Shown in pieces: positions 4,560 to 32,196 of a stretch of 32,196 nt of DNA. Under the pieces are notes generated by a model, which was given only the letters and a program-made list of their open reading frames with translations, ran no database searches and was not told the origin of the DNA. Position numbers and translations under genes: made by a program. The stretch lies in NCBI GenBank assembly GCA_946186945.1, contig CAMHPC010000017.1:1-32196 (forward strand), read 5' to 3'. Origin of the DNA: an uncultured Prevotella sp. GTDB lineage: Bacteria > Bacteroidota > Bacteroidia > Bacteroidales > Bacteroidaceae. Each line of letters opens with the position of its first letter. Within the stretch, counting starts at the first letter, position 1.

Positions 4560-4599
4560 TGTGGAGCGATGCAGGCATATAGAAAAAAAATATTTATTG

Positions 4600-4631
4600 T
4601 TTGCAGAAATAAGATAAAGTAACTATTTTTG
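4600..4631 (+). promoter_or_regulatory. Bacteroidetes-type promoter for the omega-amidase gene
   Basis: TTTG at 4600-4603, a spacer of exactly 20 nt and TATTTTTG at 4624-4631 match the phylum consensus TTTG-N20-TAnnTTTG without mismatch. Transcription would start near 4636, giving a leader of about 24 nt before the ATG at 4660. This separates the nitrilase/hypothetical pair from the upstream hut genes. Confidence 0.75.
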
Positions 4632-4659
4632 CAGCCATATATCATACGAAGCGCAGAGC

Positions 4660-5409
4660 ATGAAAGTGAGCATAGTGCAAATGGACGTGGAGTGGTCTAT
4701 GATACGTGAGAACACTCTTGTGGCCGAGCAGATGATACGGTCTGCTGCAGGCAGCGACCTGTATGTACTGCCCGAGATGTGGAGCACCGGTTTTGCCACC
4801 GACCCCCGTGGCATAGCCGAGAGCAACGACCGTTCGCTGCAGTGGATGCGGCACATGGCTGACAGCATGGATGCTGCGCTGAGTGGCAGCATATCGGTAT
4901 ATGTGGGCAGCGCCTACGTGAACCGCCACTACTTCGTGTATCCCGATGGCACTTACGTGTATTACGACAAGCATCACCTCTTCGGCTATGGCGGCGAGGA
5001 CCGTTACTACCATTCGGGCGACAGGCGTGTGACTGCCGAGTGGCGTGGTTGGCGTTTTCTGCTATTGACGTGCTACGACCTGCGTTTCCCCTTGTGGTCG
5101 CGCTATCATGGCGACTATGATGCCATAGTGTTGTGTGCCAACTGGCCGGAGCGCAGAGCCCATGCCTGGGATGTGCTGACGCGTGCCCGTGCCATAGAGA
5201 ACCAGAGCACTGTGATAGCGAGCAACCGTGTGGGACGCGACATGCAGTGTCAGTATGGCGGTGGTAGTCGGATAGTGGATGCCCACGGCGAGTTGCTCAC
5301 CCCCTCTGCTGCGAGCGGAGTCATGGTACTCACAGCCGACATAGACATAGAAGCCCAGAACAGATACCGTGAGCGGTTCAGGGTGCTCACAGACCGTGAC
5401 TGTGAATAA
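4660..5409 (+). CDS. Nitrilase-superfamily omega-amidase (YafV/Nit2-like)
   Basis: A 249-residue cytosolic carbon-nitrogen hydrolase. The Glu-Lys-Cys triad is visible: E39 in VLPEMWSTGF, K104 in YYDKHHLFGYGGED and C138 in LLTCYDLRFPLWSR. The HHLF and CYDLRFP blocks and the short single-domain length fit the YafV/Nit2 branch, which hydrolyses alpha-ketoglutaramate and alpha-ketosuccinamate to the 2-oxo acid and ammonia; this repairs the by-product of glutamine transaminases. The exact substrate is inferred from the family. The gene has its own good promoter, starts at the first ATG downstream of it, and is followed after 23 nt by the acidic-tailed unknown gene, so the two are probably one transcript. 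Confidence 0.85.
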   Translation: MKVSIVQMDVEWSMIRENTLVAEQMIRSAAGSDLYVLPEMWSTGFATDPRGIAESNDRSLQWMRHMADSMDAALSGSISVYVGSAYVNRHYFVYPDGTYVYYDKHHLFGYGGEDRYYHSGDRRVTAEWRGWRFLLLTCYDLRFPLWSRYHGDYDAIVLCANWPERRAHAWDVLTRARAIENQSTVIASNRVGRDMQCQYGGGSRIVDAHGELLTPSAASGVMVLTADIDIEAQNRYRERFRVLTDRDCE

Positions 5410-5432
5410 TAGGAAACAACAAGCAAAGAAAT

Positions 5433-6236
5433 ATGAAAGACAAGAAGACACTAACACTCAAGACATTGAGCAAGAGCAATGTATGGGACCTGCAAGAGAA
5501 CGACATCTTCCGCATGTGGGAGTCGGCAGAGCGTGATGCAGACCTGCGTGACAACCTGCGTCACTATCTGGACATAATACGCAGTGCCTTTGAAATAGAG
5601 GAACTGAAGATAGACAAGCCACAGGTAGTGAAGAAGTATGAGGACCGTGGTTACAAGATAGGGATGCTGCGTCTGGACGACCAGACCCGCACCAAGTGGT
5701 GTATCAAGAAGCGTCCTATCCTTCGTGTGACCGACCTGACCTATGAGAACATCCGTCATATCTCTGCCACGAAGTTGCTGGAGGTGCTCGACCGCAATTT
5801 CGGTGGTGGTTGGGACAGTCTCTCACAGAGTATCCGCGACATTATAGAGAGCGGCTTTGACATTAGCACCACCACTCTGCCCGCCGACCGTCTGCGCAAG
5901 CCGGGCGGCATGTACGAGAAGAAGGTGGACGATGGTTTCGAGGTGTTGGAGATACCTAAGGGTTCGTGGGTAGAGGCGATTTTTGCCAAGGCGAAGCCTG
6001 ATGTGGAGCGTCCTCGCACCCGTTTTGACATACCTGAGGACGACCTGTCTGATGACGAATTGAACGATGATGAGGACCTGCCTGAGATAGAGGACCACTA
6101 CGAGGATGATGATGATGATGATGACACCTTCGATGAGGACCGTCTGACCGAGGAGAGTTACCGCACCACCTTTGACACCGAGCCTGAGGATCTGAACCTG
6201 GAGGCAGAGGAGATGAGTGACGAATACGACAATTAA
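5433..6236 (+). CDS. Unknown protein with a highly acidic C-terminal tail
   Basis: I do not recognise this 267-residue family. There is no signal peptide or membrane segment, so it should be cytosolic. Residues about 1-200 look like a mixed helical globular domain (for example IFRMWESAERDADLRDNLRHY and IRHISATKLLEVLDRNFGGGW). Residues about 200-267 are intrinsically disordered and almost wholly Asp/Glu, with a run of seven Asp encoded by GAT repeats. Such tails often mimic nucleic acid or bind basic partners, but nothing here proves that. It follows the omega-amidase by 23 nt on the same strand. Its stop codon overlaps that of the convergent TPR gene within the palindrome TTAA at 6233-6236. 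Confidence 0.75.
   Translation: MKDKKTLTLKTLSKSNVWDLQENDIFRMWESAERDADLRDNLRHYLDIIRSAFEIEELKIDKPQVVKKYEDRGYKIGMLRLDDQTRTKWCIKKRPILRVTDLTYENIRHISATKLLEVLDRNFGGGWDSLSQSIRDIIESGFDISTTTLPADRLRKPGGMYEKKVDDGFEVLEIPKGSWVEAIFAKAKPDVERPRTRFDIPEDDLSDDELNDDEDLPEIEDHYEDDDDDDDTFDEDRLTEESYRTTFDTEPEDLNLEAEEMSDEYDN
6105..6122 (+). repeat. GAT trinucleotide repeat (six units) inside the acidic tail
   Basis: Six perfect GAT codons followed by GAC encode the poly-Asp run of the unknown protein at 5433-6236. Length changes would stay in frame, altering only the number of Asp residues. Confidence 0.8.
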
Positions 6237-8191
6237 CGGTATTTCTTGATAACGCTGTAGGCTCCGTACACACCCAGTTCCCCCGCTATGCTGAGGTCGG
6301 CAATACCTTCTTTCGTCTTGCCGAGGTGTATGAGAGCCAGTCCGCGATTGAAGAAAGCCTCCGGCAGTGCCGGTTGCAGTTTTAGGGCTGTGGTAAAATC
6401 TGCCACAGCCTTTTCATATTGTTGCTGTGCCACGTATATACACCCTCTGTCGTACACCACGTAGGCATTGTCGGGTTCGAGAGCGATGACAGCATCGATA
6501 TCCGTCAGTGCCCTGACCATCATCAGCGGTGCGTCGGCACCCATGAGCGGAGCCTGTAGTGCGAGGCACACCCCTCTTTGCCAGAGGGCGAGTGTGAGTG
6601 TAGAATCGATTTCAATAGCCGTAGTGAGGTCATTGCTTGCCGCATCGAGGTCTTGCAGAGCCGTATGGTTGACCGCCCTTCTGAGAAGCAGTTGGCAAAG
6701 AGAAGCATTATCCTTGGCGGCATCGATATCGTCGGAGAGCCCCTGCACGTTTTTCATCAGTTGTTTATTCTGCTCTTCGGTAGCGGAGGGAGTGTTGCAT
6801 GACAGGTAGATGTGCTGAGAGGGTGCGAGGTGAGCATTGAAGGCATCGAGCGACGCGACGAACACCGTATAGGGGTTTACCACATTAGCATAGGGCACAT
6901 ACGAGAGCATGTACAGCGGTTGGTATTCGCCTTCTGTCTGGTGGTTTTGCACTTTTCCCCTGTATGGATTATCGTACTTGAACTCATGTTCCACCTTCTC
7001 CTCGTCCGCCACTACTATCTGGTTGTACTTGTCCATATCCACCTCGCTCTTCTTTCTGGTGAGTCGGCGTTGAGCTGCCGTCCATCGTGGTTGTATACCC
7101 ACATGTTTATCCATCTGTGCCTTGAAGATACGAAACTCGTCGAGTTCAGCCTGTTTAGTCATTCCCAGTTTCCGGTAGCAGTCAGCCCTGTGATGCAATC
7201 CCGTCCAGAAGTTTGGATACTGGTTTATGACCTTGGTATAGTCGTTGATAGCCGCCCTGAGGTTTCCCGTCTTATGGTGTAGCAGAGCCCTGTTGTATAT
7301 AGCCATGAGGTTTTCCGGTTCGAGTTTGAGTATGAAGTCGAAGTCCTCTATAGCCCTGTTGTCGTCGCCCACCTGTATGCGTAGCAGTCCCCTGTTGTAG
7401 TGAGCGAGGAAGTTGTCTGGGTCGACGTCGATAGCCGTATCATAGTCCTGCATAGCCCCTCTGAGTTGGTTGAGGTTAAGTCTGGCGAGAGCCCTGTTCA
7501 CATAGTTGCTCACCATCTTGGGTTTTAGTTTTATGGCCTGTGATAGTTGCTGTTCCGCCTCTTTCCACTGGCTTCTTGATAGCGAGACGTGAGCCCTTGT
7601 CATCCACCCCTCGGCATTGTATGGGTCTTTCTCGAGTGAGCGGTCGAGCCATTTCATAGCCGTAGTGGTATCATTTTGTATCATATATATCTGTGCTCTG
7701 ACGGCGTATGTTCTGGAGTTTTGGCTCCAGCGGTGTATGATACTGTCTATCTGAGCCTGGCAGCGGTCATACTCTTTAGTTTCGAAGAGGCACAGCATGC
7801 GGTTGAACCACAGGTTTTCAGCCGTAGGGTTGAGAGCGATGGCGTGGTCATAGTCGTCGATGGCATCAGTGTAATTCTCCTGCCTGATACGGCACAGAGC
7901 CCTGAGTTCGTACATAGTATCGAAATAGGGGTTAATCTTCATGGCAGCCGTCACGTCCTGCTCAGCACCGTAGAAGTCGTCGAGATAATACTTAGCCACC
8001 CCTCTGTAATACCAAGGGTCGTAGAGGTAGGGTTTTGCATTGATAGCCCTGTTGAAGTATTGTATGGCGAGCACATAGTCTTCATAATACAATGCGCTGC
8101 GCCCATTCACGATAAGTCTGTCGACATTGTATTGTGAATAGGCGCAGAGAGAAAAGAGCAGAGTGATGATGAAGCAGTGCAACCTTTGCAT
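6233..8191 (-). CDS. Secreted tetratricopeptide-repeat protein
   Basis: A 652-residue protein with an N-terminal signal peptide (hydrophobic run to about residue 18, CAYSQ cleavage region), so it is exported to the periplasm or cell surface. Residues about 20-370 form at least nine TPR units with the usual pattern, for example VNRALARLNLNQLRGAMQDY, YNRGLL and YNRALLHHKTGNLRAAINDY. A non-repetitive linker (about 370-470) contains LYMLSYVPYANVVNPYTV. A second TPR block (about 495-645) ends the protein. TPRs mediate protein-protein contacts; no enzyme motif is visible. It starts 4 nt after the def stop and is the last gene of the SPOR-ruvX-def unit. Its TAA overlaps the stop of the convergent gene. 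Confidence 0.88.
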   Translation of the reverse strand: MQRLHCFIITLLFSLCAYSQYNVDRLIVNGRSALYYEDYVLAIQYFNRAINAKPYLYDPWYYRGVAKYYLDDFYGAEQDVTAAMKINPYFDTMYELRALCRIRQENYTDAIDDYDHAIALNPTAENLWFNRMLCLFETKEYDRCQAQIDSIIHRWSQNSRTYAVRAQIYMIQNDTTTAMKWLDRSLEKDPYNAEGWMTRAHVSLSRSQWKEAEQQLSQAIKLKPKMVSNYVNRALARLNLNQLRGAMQDYDTAIDVDPDNFLAHYNRGLLRIQVGDDNRAIEDFDFILKLEPENLMAIYNRALLHHKTGNLRAAINDYTKVINQYPNFWTGLHHRADCYRKLGMTKQAELDEFRIFKAQMDKHVGIQPRWTAAQRRLTRKKSEVDMDKYNQIVVADEEKVEHEFKYDNPYRGKVQNHQTEGEYQPLYMLSYVPYANVVNPYTVFVASLDAFNAHLAPSQHIYLSCNTPSATEEQNKQLMKNVQGLSDDIDAAKDNASLCQLLLRRAVNHTALQDLDAASNDLTTAIEIDSTLTLALWQRGVCLALQAPLMGADAPLMMVRALTDIDAVIALEPDNAYVVYDRGCIYVAQQQYEKAVADFTTALKLQPALPEAFFNRGLALIHLGKTKEGIADLSIAGELGVYGAYSVIKKYR

Positions 8192-27950: not shown

Positions 27951-29618
27951 TCAGGAGTAAGCCTGTTCGTGCACCCCTTTGACTGCCCGTCCGCTGGGGT
28001 CGTTCATATTTTTGAAAGCAGCATCCCACTCCAGAGCGATCGCCGTGCTGCATGCCACACTTGCCTCGCTGGGCACGGAACGTGCTGCGGAGTCGGAGGG
28101 GAAGTGTTCGGCAAAGATGCAGCGGTAGTAATATTCCTCTTTGTTCTTTGGCGGATTGACAGGGAAGCGTTCAGCGGCATGAGCCATCTGTTCATCGGTG
28201 ACCGCTTCAGACGTGATTTTCTTTAGAGTGTCAATCCAGGAATAGCCCACGCCATCGCTAAATTGTTCCTTCTGTCTCCATGCCACCTCCTCAGGCAGCA
28301 TATCAGCGAAGGCCTCGCGCACTATTTTCTTCTCCACTGTCTGTCCCTGACACATCTTAGCCTCGGGGTTGGTACGCATAGCGACATCGAGAAACTCCTT
28401 GTCGAGGAAAGGCACCCTTCCCTCTACGCCCCATGCCGAGAGACTCTTGTTAGCCCTCAGGCAATCATATAGATAGAGTTTTGATAGTTTCCTGACCGTC
28501 TCGTCGTGAAATTCCCTTGCCGACGGAGCCTTATGGAAATACAGGTATCCACCGAATATTTCGTCAGCGCCCTCACCCGAGAGCACCATTTTTATTCCCA
28601 TCGACTTAATGACACGCGCCAGGAGATACATAGGTGTGGATGCCCTCACGGTAGTGACATCGTATGTTTCTATATAGTATATCACATCGCGTATAGCATC
28701 GAGTCCCTCCTGCACGGTATAGTTTATCTCGTGGTGCACAGTACCGATACGTTCAGCCACGAGTCGTGCCTTTGCCAGGTCGGGAGCCCCTTTCAGTCCC
28801 ACGGCAAAGGAGTGTAGTCTTGGCCAGTATGCACGTGTGAGACTGTTGTCCTCTATACGGTGTTCGCTGAACCTCTCTGCAATAGCCGACACCACACTGC
28901 TATCCAGACCGCCGCTGAGCAGCACCCCGTATGGCACATCGCTCATCAGTTGCCGCTTCACGGCAGCGGTGAGTGCTTGCCGTATAGCCTCCACCGAAGC
29001 AGGGTTGTCCTTCACCTCATCGTATGAGAACCAGTCGCGTTTGTAGTATCTCTTCATGCCCGGTTGGCGGCTCCAGTAGTAATGTCCGGGCAGGAACTGT
29101 TCGTAGCGTTCGCACTGCCCCTCGAGCGCCTTCAGTTCTGAAGCCACATATACCGTGCCGTCACTGTCGTAACCGATATAAAGTGGTATGACCCCTATCG
29201 GGTCGCGGGCTATGAGAAATTCATCTTTCTCCTCATCATAGAGCACGAAGGCGAAGATACCGTTGAGGTCTTCGAGGAAATCTATACCCTTGTCCCTGTA
29301 AAGAGCCAGAATCACCTCGCAGTCGCTGCCAGTTATAAAATCATATCTGCCAGTATATCTGCGACGTATTTCCTGGTGGTTGTATATTTCACCATTTACG
29401 GCAAGCACTTGGTTTCGGTCGGTAGAGAAGAGCGGTTGCCCTCCACTTTCAGGGTCGACTATAGACAGACGTTCGTGTGCGAGGATGGCAGACCCTCCCA
29501 CGTATATACCACTCCAGTCGGGTCCGCGATGACGCAGTTTCTGACTCATGCACAGGGCTTTGCGTCTGAGTTCAGGTGTCTGTTGCCTTACATTAAGGAT
29601 AGATACTATTCCACACAT
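27951..29618 (-). CDS. asnB: Glutamine-hydrolysing asparagine synthase B
   Basis: Makes asparagine from aspartate, ATP and glutamine. The ATG at 29618 gives 555 residues, the normal AsnB length, with Cys2 as the N-terminal nucleophile of the class II glutaminase (MCGIVSILN). The frame is open to 29735, but that would bury Cys2. Glutaminase motifs: RHRGPDWSG, LAHERLSIVDPESGGQPL and VNGEIYNHQEIR. The synthetase half has the PP-loop LLSGGLDSS (235-241), LSGEGADEIFGGYLYFHKAP and VEGRVPFLDKEFLDVA. It begins 34 nt after the carbamoyl-phosphate synthase gene, so glutamine-dependent Asn and carbamoyl-phosphate production are probably cotranscribed. Confidence 0.95.
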   Translation of the reverse strand: MCGIVSILNVRQQTPELRRKALCMSQKLRHRGPDWSGIYVGGSAILAHERLSIVDPESGGQPLFSTDRNQVLAVNGEIYNHQEIRRRYTGRYDFITGSDCEVILALYRDKGIDFLEDLNGIFAFVLYDEEKDEFLIARDPIGVIPLYIGYDSDGTVYVASELKALEGQCERYEQFLPGHYYWSRQPGMKRYYKRDWFSYDEVKDNPASVEAIRQALTAAVKRQLMSDVPYGVLLSGGLDSSVVSAIAERFSEHRIEDNSLTRAYWPRLHSFAVGLKGAPDLAKARLVAERIGTVHHEINYTVQEGLDAIRDVIYYIETYDVTTVRASTPMYLLARVIKSMGIKMVLSGEGADEIFGGYLYFHKAPSAREFHDETVRKLSKLYLYDCLRANKSLSAWGVEGRVPFLDKEFLDVAMRTNPEAKMCQGQTVEKKIVREAFADMLPEEVAWRQKEQFSDGVGYSWIDTLKKITSEAVTDEQMAHAAERFPVNPPKNKEEYYYRCIFAEHFPSDSAARSVPSEASVACSTAIALEWDAAFKNMNDPSGRAVKGVHEQAYS

Positions 29619-29652: not shown

Positions 29653-32196
29653 CTATAGATAAGAGAGATAGAGGTAATTGGTGACGGCAGGATATTCGGC
29701 AGCGAGAGTATCAATCTGGTTAGTCTTTGGCACAATATCCAGTTCTTTACGCCATTGGCGAATGGTGAGTCCCGCCTGTTCCATATTCATATCCTTCTCC
29801 AGTCCGATAGCCCTGCCTATCTGGAAGTCGGAGAAGCCATACCTTTTGGCATGTCTGAGCAGGTCGGCAAACTCAGGCGCCTCAACATACTCCAGTAGTT
29901 CGAGCGGTTCCATAAATGAAATCAAATCAGAGAAGTGCTGGAACTCGTGCAGACGGTCGTCAATATCGATGATATGTTTGAGTTTTTTCAGGAACCAGTT
30001 GTCTATCATTGTCATCTGATGGATCTGTGCCACACTATACCCCATTTTCATGGCTTTGGCGAGGACGAAGATACGCATATCGGTAGGCTCGTGCAGAGCC
30101 CTCATGACATCCTTTATTTTCAGTTCATGGTTGCCCACGAATCCATGCATACCTTGTCCTATCATGCGCAGCCCCTTCTGCAGCGCCTCCTCGAATGTCC
30201 GTCCGACAGCCATCACCTCGCCCACACTTTTCATGCTCGAGCCCAGTTGGTGACTCACGCCATGGAATTTGGAGAGGTCCCATCTTGGTATCTTGCACAC
30301 CACGTAGTCCAGTGCAGGTTCGAAGAACGCCGAAGTGCACTTAGTGACAGAGTTATTGAGTTCGAAGAGTCCGTATCCCAGTCCGAGTTTTGCTGCCACG
30401 AATGCCAGCGGATATCCCGTAGCCTTGGAAGCCAGAGCCGACGACCTGCTGAGACGGGCATTGACCTCGATGACGCGGTAGTCTTCCGACTGCGGGTCGA
30501 GTGCGTACTGCACGTTGCATTCGCCCACCACCCCTATATGTCTTATGATTTTGATGGCGAGGTGTCGCAACTTGTGATATTCGCTATTTGAAAGAGTCTG
30601 CGAAGGTGCCACCACAATACTTTCTCCAGTATGAATACCCAGTGGGTCGAAATTTTCCATATTGCACACGGTGATACAATTGTCGTATGCATCTCTCACC
30701 ACCTCGTATTCTATCTCTTTCCATCCTTTCAGTGATTTCTCCACGAGCACCTGCGAAGAGAAAGAGAACGCCTCTTCCGCCTGAGTCTCCAGTTCCGCCT
30801 CGTTATCACAGAAGCCCGAACCCAGTCCGCCGAGAGCATAGGCGGCACGCAGTATGACGGGATAGCCCAGTTGCTCAGCCGCGCGTCGCACCTCCTCCTT
30901 GTTGTTGCAAGCCTGCGATTTGATAGTCTTCACCCCTATTTCATCGAGTCGTTTGACGAAGAGTTCCCTGTCCTCGGTATCGATGATAGCCTGTACGGGA
31001 GTGCCCATCACCTTCACCCCGTATTTATCCAACACACCATTCTCGTAGAGAGTCACTCCGCAGTTGAGCGCCGTCTGTCCACCGAAGCCCAGCATGATAC
31101 CATCGGGCCGTTCTTTCTCTATTATCCTCTCCACGAACTCAGGAGTGACGGGTTGGAAATACACCTTGTCAGCCACATCCTTTGAGGTCTGTACGGTAGC
31201 GATGTTTGGATTGATGAGAACTGTGTATATGCCCTCCTCCCTGAGAGCCTTGAGAGCCTGCGCCCCACTGTAGTCGAACTCGCCGGCCTGTCCTATCTTC
31301 AGGGCGCCCGAACCGAGTATCAGCACCTTCTTAGGCTTCTGTCGGTGGTTTGCTTCGGTTGGTGTGGCGAGTATGTCCCTCTTGTCAGGATGCAGAATCA
31401 CATCGACGAACTCGTCGAAGAGAAACTCCGTATCCACCGGTCCCGAGCATGCCTCGGGGTGGAACTGTGCCGAGAACCACGGGTTTGTATCATGTATGAT
31501 ACCCTCGTTGGACCCATCGTTCATGTTTACGAAGAGCGGTTGCCAATCCCTGGGCAGAGAAGAATCGTCTACAGCATATCCATGGTTTTGCGAAGTGATG
31601 AAGCACTGTGTAGAGTTGACTCTTCTGACAGGTTGGTTGTGTGATCGGTGTCCGTATTTCAGTTTGTATGTAGTAGCCCCAGCCGCACGAGCCAGCAGTT
31701 GGTTGCCGAGGCAGATACCCATGCAGGGTCTCACCTTCTCGTTACGTAGGAATGTACGGATATGGTTGACCGTTGTCTCGCACTGTTCGGGGTCGCCGGG
31801 TCCGTTTGAGATAAAGAGAGCATCAAAGTCAAGAGTATTGAAATCGTAATCCCATGGCACCCGTATCACCTCCAGGTTTCTTTTCACGAGGCATCGTATG
31901 ATGTTTGCCTTCACCCCGCAGTCTACGAGAACCACCCGTTTTGGTGCGCCTTCGTTGTACGTCACGGTTTCCTTCACACTCACTCTCTCCACCCAGTTCA
32001 CGTTTTCATATCCCTCATCTGTGGGCATGTCATGGCAGTCCTCTATTACTATGGTGCCTCGCATCACGCCGTGTTCACGGAGTAGCATGGTCAGTCGTCG
32101 GGTGTCTATGCCCGAGACCGCCGGTATGCCCTCTTGTCTGAGCCATTCTTGCAGTGACAGTCTGGCATTCCAATGGCAATACTGTTCACTATAGTC
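29653..32196 (-). CDS. carA/carB: Carbamoyl-phosphate synthase: CarA fused to the first half of CarB (5' partial)
   Basis: The frame is open at the right edge (first visible codon GAC at 32196; DYSEQYCHWNARLSL is mid CarA N-domain). A class I glutaminase follows with nucleophile Cys in GICLGNQ (near 31713) and His/Glu in QFHPEACS. From about 31332 the same frame continues as CarB (VLILGSGALKIGQAGEFDYSG; INPNIATVQTS; GFGGQTALNCG; an ATP-grasp domain with YALGGLGSG, SLKGWKEIEYEVVRDA and VEVNARLSRSSAL), then the oligomerisation domain. It ends at TNYLYLSYL and a TAG stop, where normal CarB passes into its second ATP-grasp half; that half is absent. The sequence is close to eukaryotic CAD. Glutamine supplies ammonia; the second phosphorylation needs a partner or homodimer. 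Confidence 0.9.
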   Translation of the reverse strand, partial: DYSEQYCHWNARLSLQEWLRQEGIPAVSGIDTRRLTMLLREHGVMRGTIVIEDCHDMPTDEGYENVNWVERVSVKETVTYNEGAPKRVVLVDCGVKANIIRCLVKRNLEVIRVPWDYDFNTLDFDALFISNGPGDPEQCETTVNHIRTFLRNEKVRPCMGICLGNQLLARAAGATTYKLKYGHRSHNQPVRRVNSTQCFITSQNHGYAVDDSSLPRDWQPLFVNMNDGSNEGIIHDTNPWFSAQFHPEACSGPVDTEFLFDEFVDVILHPDKRDILATPTEANHRQKPKKVLILGSGALKIGQAGEFDYSGAQALKALREEGIYTVLINPNIATVQTSKDVADKVYFQPVTPEFVERIIEKERPDGIMLGFGGQTALNCGVTLYENGVLDKYGVKVMGTPVQAIIDTEDRELFVKRLDEIGVKTIKSQACNNKEEVRRAAEQLGYPVILRAAYALGGLGSGFCDNEAELETQAEEAFSFSSQVLVEKSLKGWKEIEYEVVRDAYDNCITVCNMENFDPLGIHTGESIVVAPSQTLSNSEYHKLRHLAIKIIRHIGVVGECNVQYALDPQSEDYRVIEVNARLSRSSALASKATGYPLAFVAAKLGLGYGLFELNNSVTKCTSAFFEPALDYVVCKIPRWDLSKFHGVSHQLGSSMKSVGEVMAVGRTFEEALQKGLRMIGQGMHGFVGNHELKIKDVMRALHEPTDMRIFVLAKAMKMGYSVAQIHQMTMIDNWFLKKLKHIIDIDDRLHEFQHFSDLISFMEPLELLEYVEAPEFADLLRHAKRYGFSDFQIGRAIGLEKDMNMEQAGLTIRQWRKELDIVPKTNQIDTLAAEYPAVTNYLYLSYL

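Follow-up and report, generated by a model that had tools for sequence, protein, structure and literature searches.

The car gene of an uncultured Prevotella sp., as read from its sequence, encodes a natural half-size CarA-CarB protein from which the allosteric domain and the second half of CarB are missing; what is new is a natural half-size CarB with its glutaminase, and the kind of enzyme to which it belongs, carbamoyl-phosphate synthase, is known. The predicted role of the half is that of a glutamine-dependent carbamoyl-phosphate synthase, which would work as a homodimer beside a full-length and probably ammonia-dependent CarB (CarB2), a reading that we regard as evenly poised between right and wrong. 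The window, i.e. the whole stretch of 32,196 nucleotides that was analysed, is the entire contig C17 of a genome of 185 contigs that is 89.6% complete, and as the car frame runs off the contig end, the start of the gene lies outside the window; nearly all of the 93 missing codons were found on contig C23. The open frame in the window (29653-32196, minus strand) has 847 codons and ends with TNYLYLSYL and a stop codon, and the features of the locus are as follows:

29653..32196, minus strand: carA-carB(N) fusion gene, final 847 codons and stop; the opening ~93 codons are mostly on contig C23
32050..32193, minus strand: C-terminal part of the CarA N-terminal domain PF00988 (profile positions 79-126; Pfam)
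31402..31932, minus strand: class I glutamine amidotransferase domain PF00117, with catalytic Cys, His and Glu present (Pfam)
30985..31332, minus strand: CarB pre-ATP-grasp domain PF25596, carrying Q where full-length CarB1 has E (E. coli position 22; Pfam)
30364..30972, minus strand: first CarB ATP-grasp domain PF02786, with all catalytic residues that were checked kept (Pfam)
29812..30099, minus strand: CarB oligomerisation domain PF02787 (Pfam)
29875..29925 (approximate), minus strand: insertion of ~17 residues inside the oligomerisation domain, common to half-type proteins (read from the alignment)
29653..29655, minus strand: stop codon TAG where the two halves of CarB would adjoin, past E. 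coli position ~550 (sequence)
27951..29618, minus strand: asnB (asparagine synthase B), the next gene in the glutamine-amidotransferase cluster, with its ATG at 29618, 34 nt past the car stop

As the earlier note had proposed, the frame joins a glutaminase to the first half of CarB and stops at the domain boundary. CPSase_L_D1, L_D2 and L_D3 were each found once by Pfam, together with the CarA small-chain part and the GATase domain, and neither a second L_D2 (the second ATP-grasp half) nor the allosteric MGS-like domain PF02142 was matched in the window frame. The TIGR01369 match (859.6 bits, under the cut-off of 1027) is likewise confined to model positions 2-542 of 1052, and with a glutaminase and a single CarB half the protein has the half-size GLN-CPS.A architecture. 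The glutaminase is intact, as had been noticed, and the triad C269, H353 and E355 is kept in the CarA parts of all 37 half-type proteins aligned from loci. The whole gene is represented by a database protein of 940 aa (P0001), encoded on a single contig of 5190 bases and with the same stop as the window frame, which is 100% identical to the window protein after rounding, with at least two residues differing. The only CarA found in the source genome by PF00988 is that of the fusion itself, since the two PF00988 matches are two pieces of the same gene.

A search of 301 genomes of the family with the C-terminal end of the half placed the half form, among the matches listed, in at least 38 genomes and at least seven of 30 genera, either fused to CarA or as a gene of ~565 aa beside carA. 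Matches were counted as half-type when they started from query residue 1-4 (insertion onward) with E <= 1.1e-34; the next family matches listed had E >= 2e-30, began no earlier than query residue 9 (mostly at 16-19), and sit in longer frames typical of full-length CarB, a few of them cut by contig ends. Of the 38 half-type matches, 30 occupy frames with a length of either 565-570 or 938-1056 aa and seven are shorter fragments; the remaining match is the window itself. Among the best 120 of 8000 scored database relatives, 102 were halves and 18 full-length, and in the alignment the same end, with small variations, recurs in 37 halves from loci and in the 102 database halves. Incomplete or unclear rows (L036, L043, L069, L084, L085, L105 and L113), together with sequences that duplicate the window (L001, L002, L003 and L088), were dropped before an alignment of the loci; L105 (G339) is a full-type carB that appears as two overlapping open frames (511 and 497 aa) owing to a frameshift, which reflects either error or decay.

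The 37 locus halves, in which at least one genome was sampled twice (G304 and G353 share coordinates), comprise 27 fused to CarA (e.g. L007-L014) and 10 split, with a separate gene adjoining carA in for instance L015, L079, L082 and L086; fusion to CarA is therefore optional in the halves, and the fused or split state requires a minimum of seven changes on a quick tree. Full-length CarA-CarB fusions of 1448-1484 aa were also seen in several Bacteroidales (L027, L035, L048, L051, L054, L057, L060 and L062), and CarA-CarB fusion may therefore have arisen or been lost repeatedly. One genome (G301) holds two half-type copies, each with its own CarA, and in 15 half-type genomes reached via named loci, the CarA that was detected is either fused to the half or its neighbour.

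The second half of CarB was then searched for. The earlier note had seen none before asnB, which the 34 nt between the car stop and the asnB start codon bear out, and a search of 36 stretches downstream of halves, each at most 4000 bases long, found no remnant of a C-half, while its control worked. It had also raised a second half encoded elsewhere, and this part of its inference found no support: at E <= 1e-15, no stand-alone C-half was found in any of the 23 half-type genomes sampled from the genus, nor was one found in the 15 reached via named loci, two sets which overlap by at least one genome and in which many genomes are incomplete. A split gene with CPS.B elsewhere was rejected on this basis, and of the two options in that note we prefer the other, a natural fused synthase of half size with predicted activity; in the source genome the second CarB half exists only within CarB2. 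The suspicion that a sequencing or assembly error hides a full CarB frame, or that the gene is a decaying carAB duplicate, has in its favour that the contig end breaks the gene and that a full carB is present elsewhere in the genome. We nevertheless give it practically no credence: the same end recurs across loci and database proteins, the half form is matched in at least 38 of 301 genomes and in seven genera, no C-half remnant was found in the downstream stretches, and the gene is under purifying selection (see below). Frameshift or assembly error was ruled out by the recurrent end together with the clean downstream stretches, and a decaying duplicate by the residues and substitution rates described next.

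Fourteen positions of the N-half, which we take to be the catalytic ones of E. coli CarB, show no departures across 138 aligned halves (37 from loci and 101 database proteins, partly non-independent). C232, A251, A314 and R265 are also present in 138/138, as are A23, E25, R306 and E383. The median dN/dS of the halves is 0.10 (46 pairs) and 0.07 in the ATP-grasp part, compared with 0.14 in 27 pairs of full CarB1 and 0.09 in 40 pairs of CarB2, all by simple Nei-Gojobori counting on pairs at dS 0.2-1.2 only; by these measures the half is under purifying selection. Only seven of 541 positions are both fixed (>=97%) in full CarB1 and below 85% in the halves; broad decay of a surface is thus not apparent from the sequence, even for the surface that meets the C-half in normal CarB. 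The half could be a mere glutaminase or regulatory partner with the CarB part left over as a docking scaffold, as the absence of the second phosphorylation site and the allosteric domain might suggest, but a scaffold has no need of the ATP-site residues, all of which are fixed in the 138 rows where checked. The ATP-grasp domain is moreover the most conserved part of the half, with a mean entropy of 0.19 bit (21 halves) vs 0.37 bit in full CarB1, the halves being a narrower clade, and together with its low dN/dS this makes the scaffold explanation quite improbable.

Six substitutions are fixed between 21 halves and the N-half of full CarB1, at positions 22, 67, 130, 155, 194 and 546 (E. coli numbering), five ahead of the last residues and one near the very end, in addition to the insertion. 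None was found at the catalytic positions checked in these 21 halves, and no CarA position has one residue fixed (>90%) in half-type rows and another in full-type rows. The active-site sequence of the half is that of an ordinary N-half, without visible features of a C-half, which counts against the homodimer reading.

The surroundings of the halves were compared with those of full-length genes. Among 20 half loci, pyrG was found in 18, a purF-like gene in 17 and asnB in 18, most commonly in the order pyrG, purF-like, car, asnB, which is also that of the window locus across contigs C23 and C17; among 15 full loci that were chosen, glmS was found in 11 and the purF-like gene in nine. The half-type car locus forms a run of glutamine amidotransferases (27951-29618 in the window; L178, 266-3632 on contig C23), although the purF-like protein of half loci, of ~600 aa, has only weak GATase matches. 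Contig C23 also carries a putative gltD-like oxidoreductase gene (463 aa) near the car locus, and an ammonium transporter is located near car in some other half loci. That the usual neighbours pyrG, purF-like and asnB use glutamine, and that CarB2 could supply carbamoyl phosphate, would fit a half that makes another ATP-dependent product from glutamine nitrogen; with just the six fixed substitutions separating it from the CarB1 N-half, none of them at catalytic positions checked, we consider this very improbable.

A second full carB, a possibility already considered in the earlier note, is present in the source genome: CarB2, of 1098 aa, is located on contig C16 (6407-9703, L005) with no carA adjoining. 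CarB2 without a neighbouring carA was found in many Bacteroidales (L122-L139, L142 and others), and no conserved gene cluster was seen around it. In the genus sample (80 genomes, of which 73 had a match to CarB and seven did not, tallied by hand and leaving out G343, G354, G377 and G381 as undetermined fragments or CarB2 only), CarB2 was found in 21/23 half-type genomes vs a second CarB in 19/46 genomes with full CarB1 (Fisher p 7e-5, uncorrected for kinship among genomes), the latter defined in these 19 by a second PF02787 match, and only part of these matches were included in the tree. Among genomes at least 95% complete the numbers are 8/8 vs 4/19 (p 2e-4, likewise uncorrected). CarB2 is also present in 14 of the 15 half-type genomes reached via named loci (in pieces in G313), and 34 of the 38 half-type genomes listed for the family show at least two PF02787 matches, whereas the other four, with a single match, are 63-89% complete. 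It was not seen in G341 and G362 (genus sample), G307 (named loci) and G044, G100 and G260 (family sample), and since none of these six is known to be more than 91% complete, these absences may be gaps; no half-type genome known to be at least 95% complete was found without CarB2. That CarB2 is constant in well-assembled half-type genomes and often absent with a whole CarB1 is the main evidence against a self-sufficient half and suggests that the half alone is insufficient, or lacks the proper control.

This near-constant co-occurrence is the main support for an alternative in which the half works only with CarB2, delivering glutamine-derived ammonia or carbamate from which the C-half of CarB2 makes carbamoyl phosphate; there is also usually a single CarA gene per genome, and two of the three tunnel-gate residues are kept in CarB2. 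We consider this alternative unlikely, albeit the most serious of those weighed here. CarB2 contains both halves itself, its gate Cys (C232) is changed to A or V and R265, a residue presumably sited at the CarA interface, to Q in 37/37, and the N-half fused to CarA would be expected to occupy the docking surface of CarA. The six half-type genomes in which no second CarB was seen also speak against it, with the possible gaps mentioned above, as does G381 (99% complete, two contigs), which has CarB2 alone and no CarA match; taken with the residue losses of CarB2, G381 indicates that the glutaminase of the half is not obviously there for CarB2. As A251, A314, A309, S307 and R306 are retained in 37/37 CarB2 sequences, loss of the ammonia path in CarB2 is unproven. 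CarB2 is probably a separate, ammonia-dependent synthase in bacteria. Over 68 genomes, CarB2 was not strictly associated with a second carbamoyltransferase, of the arginine pathway, and several genomes with only full CarB1 also show two carbamoyltransferase matches.

In the homodimer that we favour, ammonia from the CarA domain would pass through the retained tunnel to the adjoining N-half, the ATP-grasp site of one copy would make carbamate, and the identical site of its partner would phosphorylate it. Around the known pseudo-twofold axis, two N-halves would thereby stand in for the usual pair of N- and C-half, position 22 with its Q and the insertion common to the halves being possible adaptations to N-half pairing, and the half would use its own glutaminase and CarB2 free ammonia, a division to which the residue pattern points without proving it. 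The gate residues of human CPS1 presumably correspond to E. coli C232, A251 and A314, which we matched by near-equal spacing. According to PMC4655335 on CPS1, that gate consists of Cys648, Ala667 and Ala729, and the phosphorylation domains form a pseudohomodimer with a carbamate tunnel built evenly from both, which makes an N-half homodimer a plausible substitute. The CarA subunit is described in PMC6245113 as contacting the carboxyphosphate and oligomerisation domains, with a twofold axis relating both phosphorylation domains, and both CarA-contacted domains lie within the retained half.

Position 22 lies next to position 23, as 574 does to 575, and we assume that 23 and 575 line the carbamate tunnel. 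It is E in 87/88 full CarB1 sequences and Q in 138/138 halves and 37/37 CarB2 sequences; E. coli CarB has Q at both 22 and 574, which is a precedent for pairing Q with Q across the axis. The insertion is by its place no clean marker, because one full CarB1 (L181, G389, 4566-7943) has its own, longer insertion of other sequence at the same spot.

Phylogenetically, all halves fall into a single clade with SH-aLRT 100, placed next to the CarB1 sequences from the Prevotella group. Placement with Prevotella CarB1 has SH-aLRT 98 in a first tree (21 halves, 85 CarB1 and 37 CarB2) and 95 in a third tree (15/37 halves, 38/88 CarB1 and 6/37 CarB2), and the N-half identity is ~0.80 to Prevotella CarB1 vs 0.73-0.79 to other groups. 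Full CarB1 as one clade without the halves was not rejected by the AU test, either with the E. coli outgroup (p 0.34; second tree with 37 halves, 46/88 CarB1 and 8/37 CarB2) or without it (p 0.13; third tree). Origin of the half from Prevotella CarB1 is thus suggested by the SH-aLRT support, the higher identity and the shared purF-like neighbour, while the AU tests leave earlier branching possible.

Compared with known systems, the closest is the Bacteroidales CarAB itself: the half shares with it a homologous glutaminase and an N-half ~80% identical to that of Prevotella CarB1, and the purF-like neighbour is common to both (17/20 half loci vs 9/15 chosen full loci), but the half lacks the second ATP-grasp and MGS domains, has the insertion and carries Q rather than E at 22. 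Engineered half enzymes of the same architecture are said to have been made by Guy and Evans 1996, Guy et al. 1997 and Serre et al. 1999, a glutaminase plus one synthetase half reportedly being active as a homodimer; those are constructs, whereas the Prevotella half is a natural, conserved gene. To our knowledge, activity of half enzymes has been shown only for constructs and for split pairs. Searches of the open-licence PMC literature brought up no account of a half-size Prevotella CarB. Aquifex aeolicus has a split synthase with separate GLN, CPS.A and CPS.B genes (PMC6022934), and its CPS.A is a unit of its own like the Prevotella half, but it has a CPS.B gene, which was not found as a stand-alone gene in the half-type genomes. 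The 41-kDa 'smallest CPS' of Methanobrevibacter smithii, with a single ATP-grasp domain, was proposed to be a dimer (PMC6022934); this is disputed, as PMC11915815 calls it 'clearly not a CPS' because it is never near CarB in trees, and proposes a pseudomurein role, whereas the Prevotella half groups with Bacteroidales CarB1. Of the eukaryotic CAD/CPS1-type synthase the half has the fusion with glutaminase but not the second synthetase half. P0001 scores 1184.7 bits in one chain against human CPS1, above the 653.8 bits against E. coli CarB and 250.9 against CarA (904.7 together), but the link to the eukaryotic enzyme that the earlier note drew is weak, and the half seems to be specific to its lineage.

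As the half is conserved, database entries of ~940-970 aa named 'carbamoyl-phosphate synthase small subunit', a name carried by four of the best 120 of the scored relatives, are likely functional proteins and not fragments. The internal duplication of CarB predates LUCA according to PMC11915815. A living lineage may have reversed this ancient duplication, with a homodimeric half and its glutaminase carrying out both phosphorylations like the presumed single-domain ancestor, a proposal that we make a little more tentatively than the prediction of a homodimer as such. A conserved natural half with its glutaminase, clearly akin to full CarB, raises the question whether a half suffices in the cell, and allows asking what the second half and the allosteric domain contribute and how two identical sites could split two different reactions between them. 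If the homodimer reading is true, a proposed ancestral form of the enzyme would become testable in nature.
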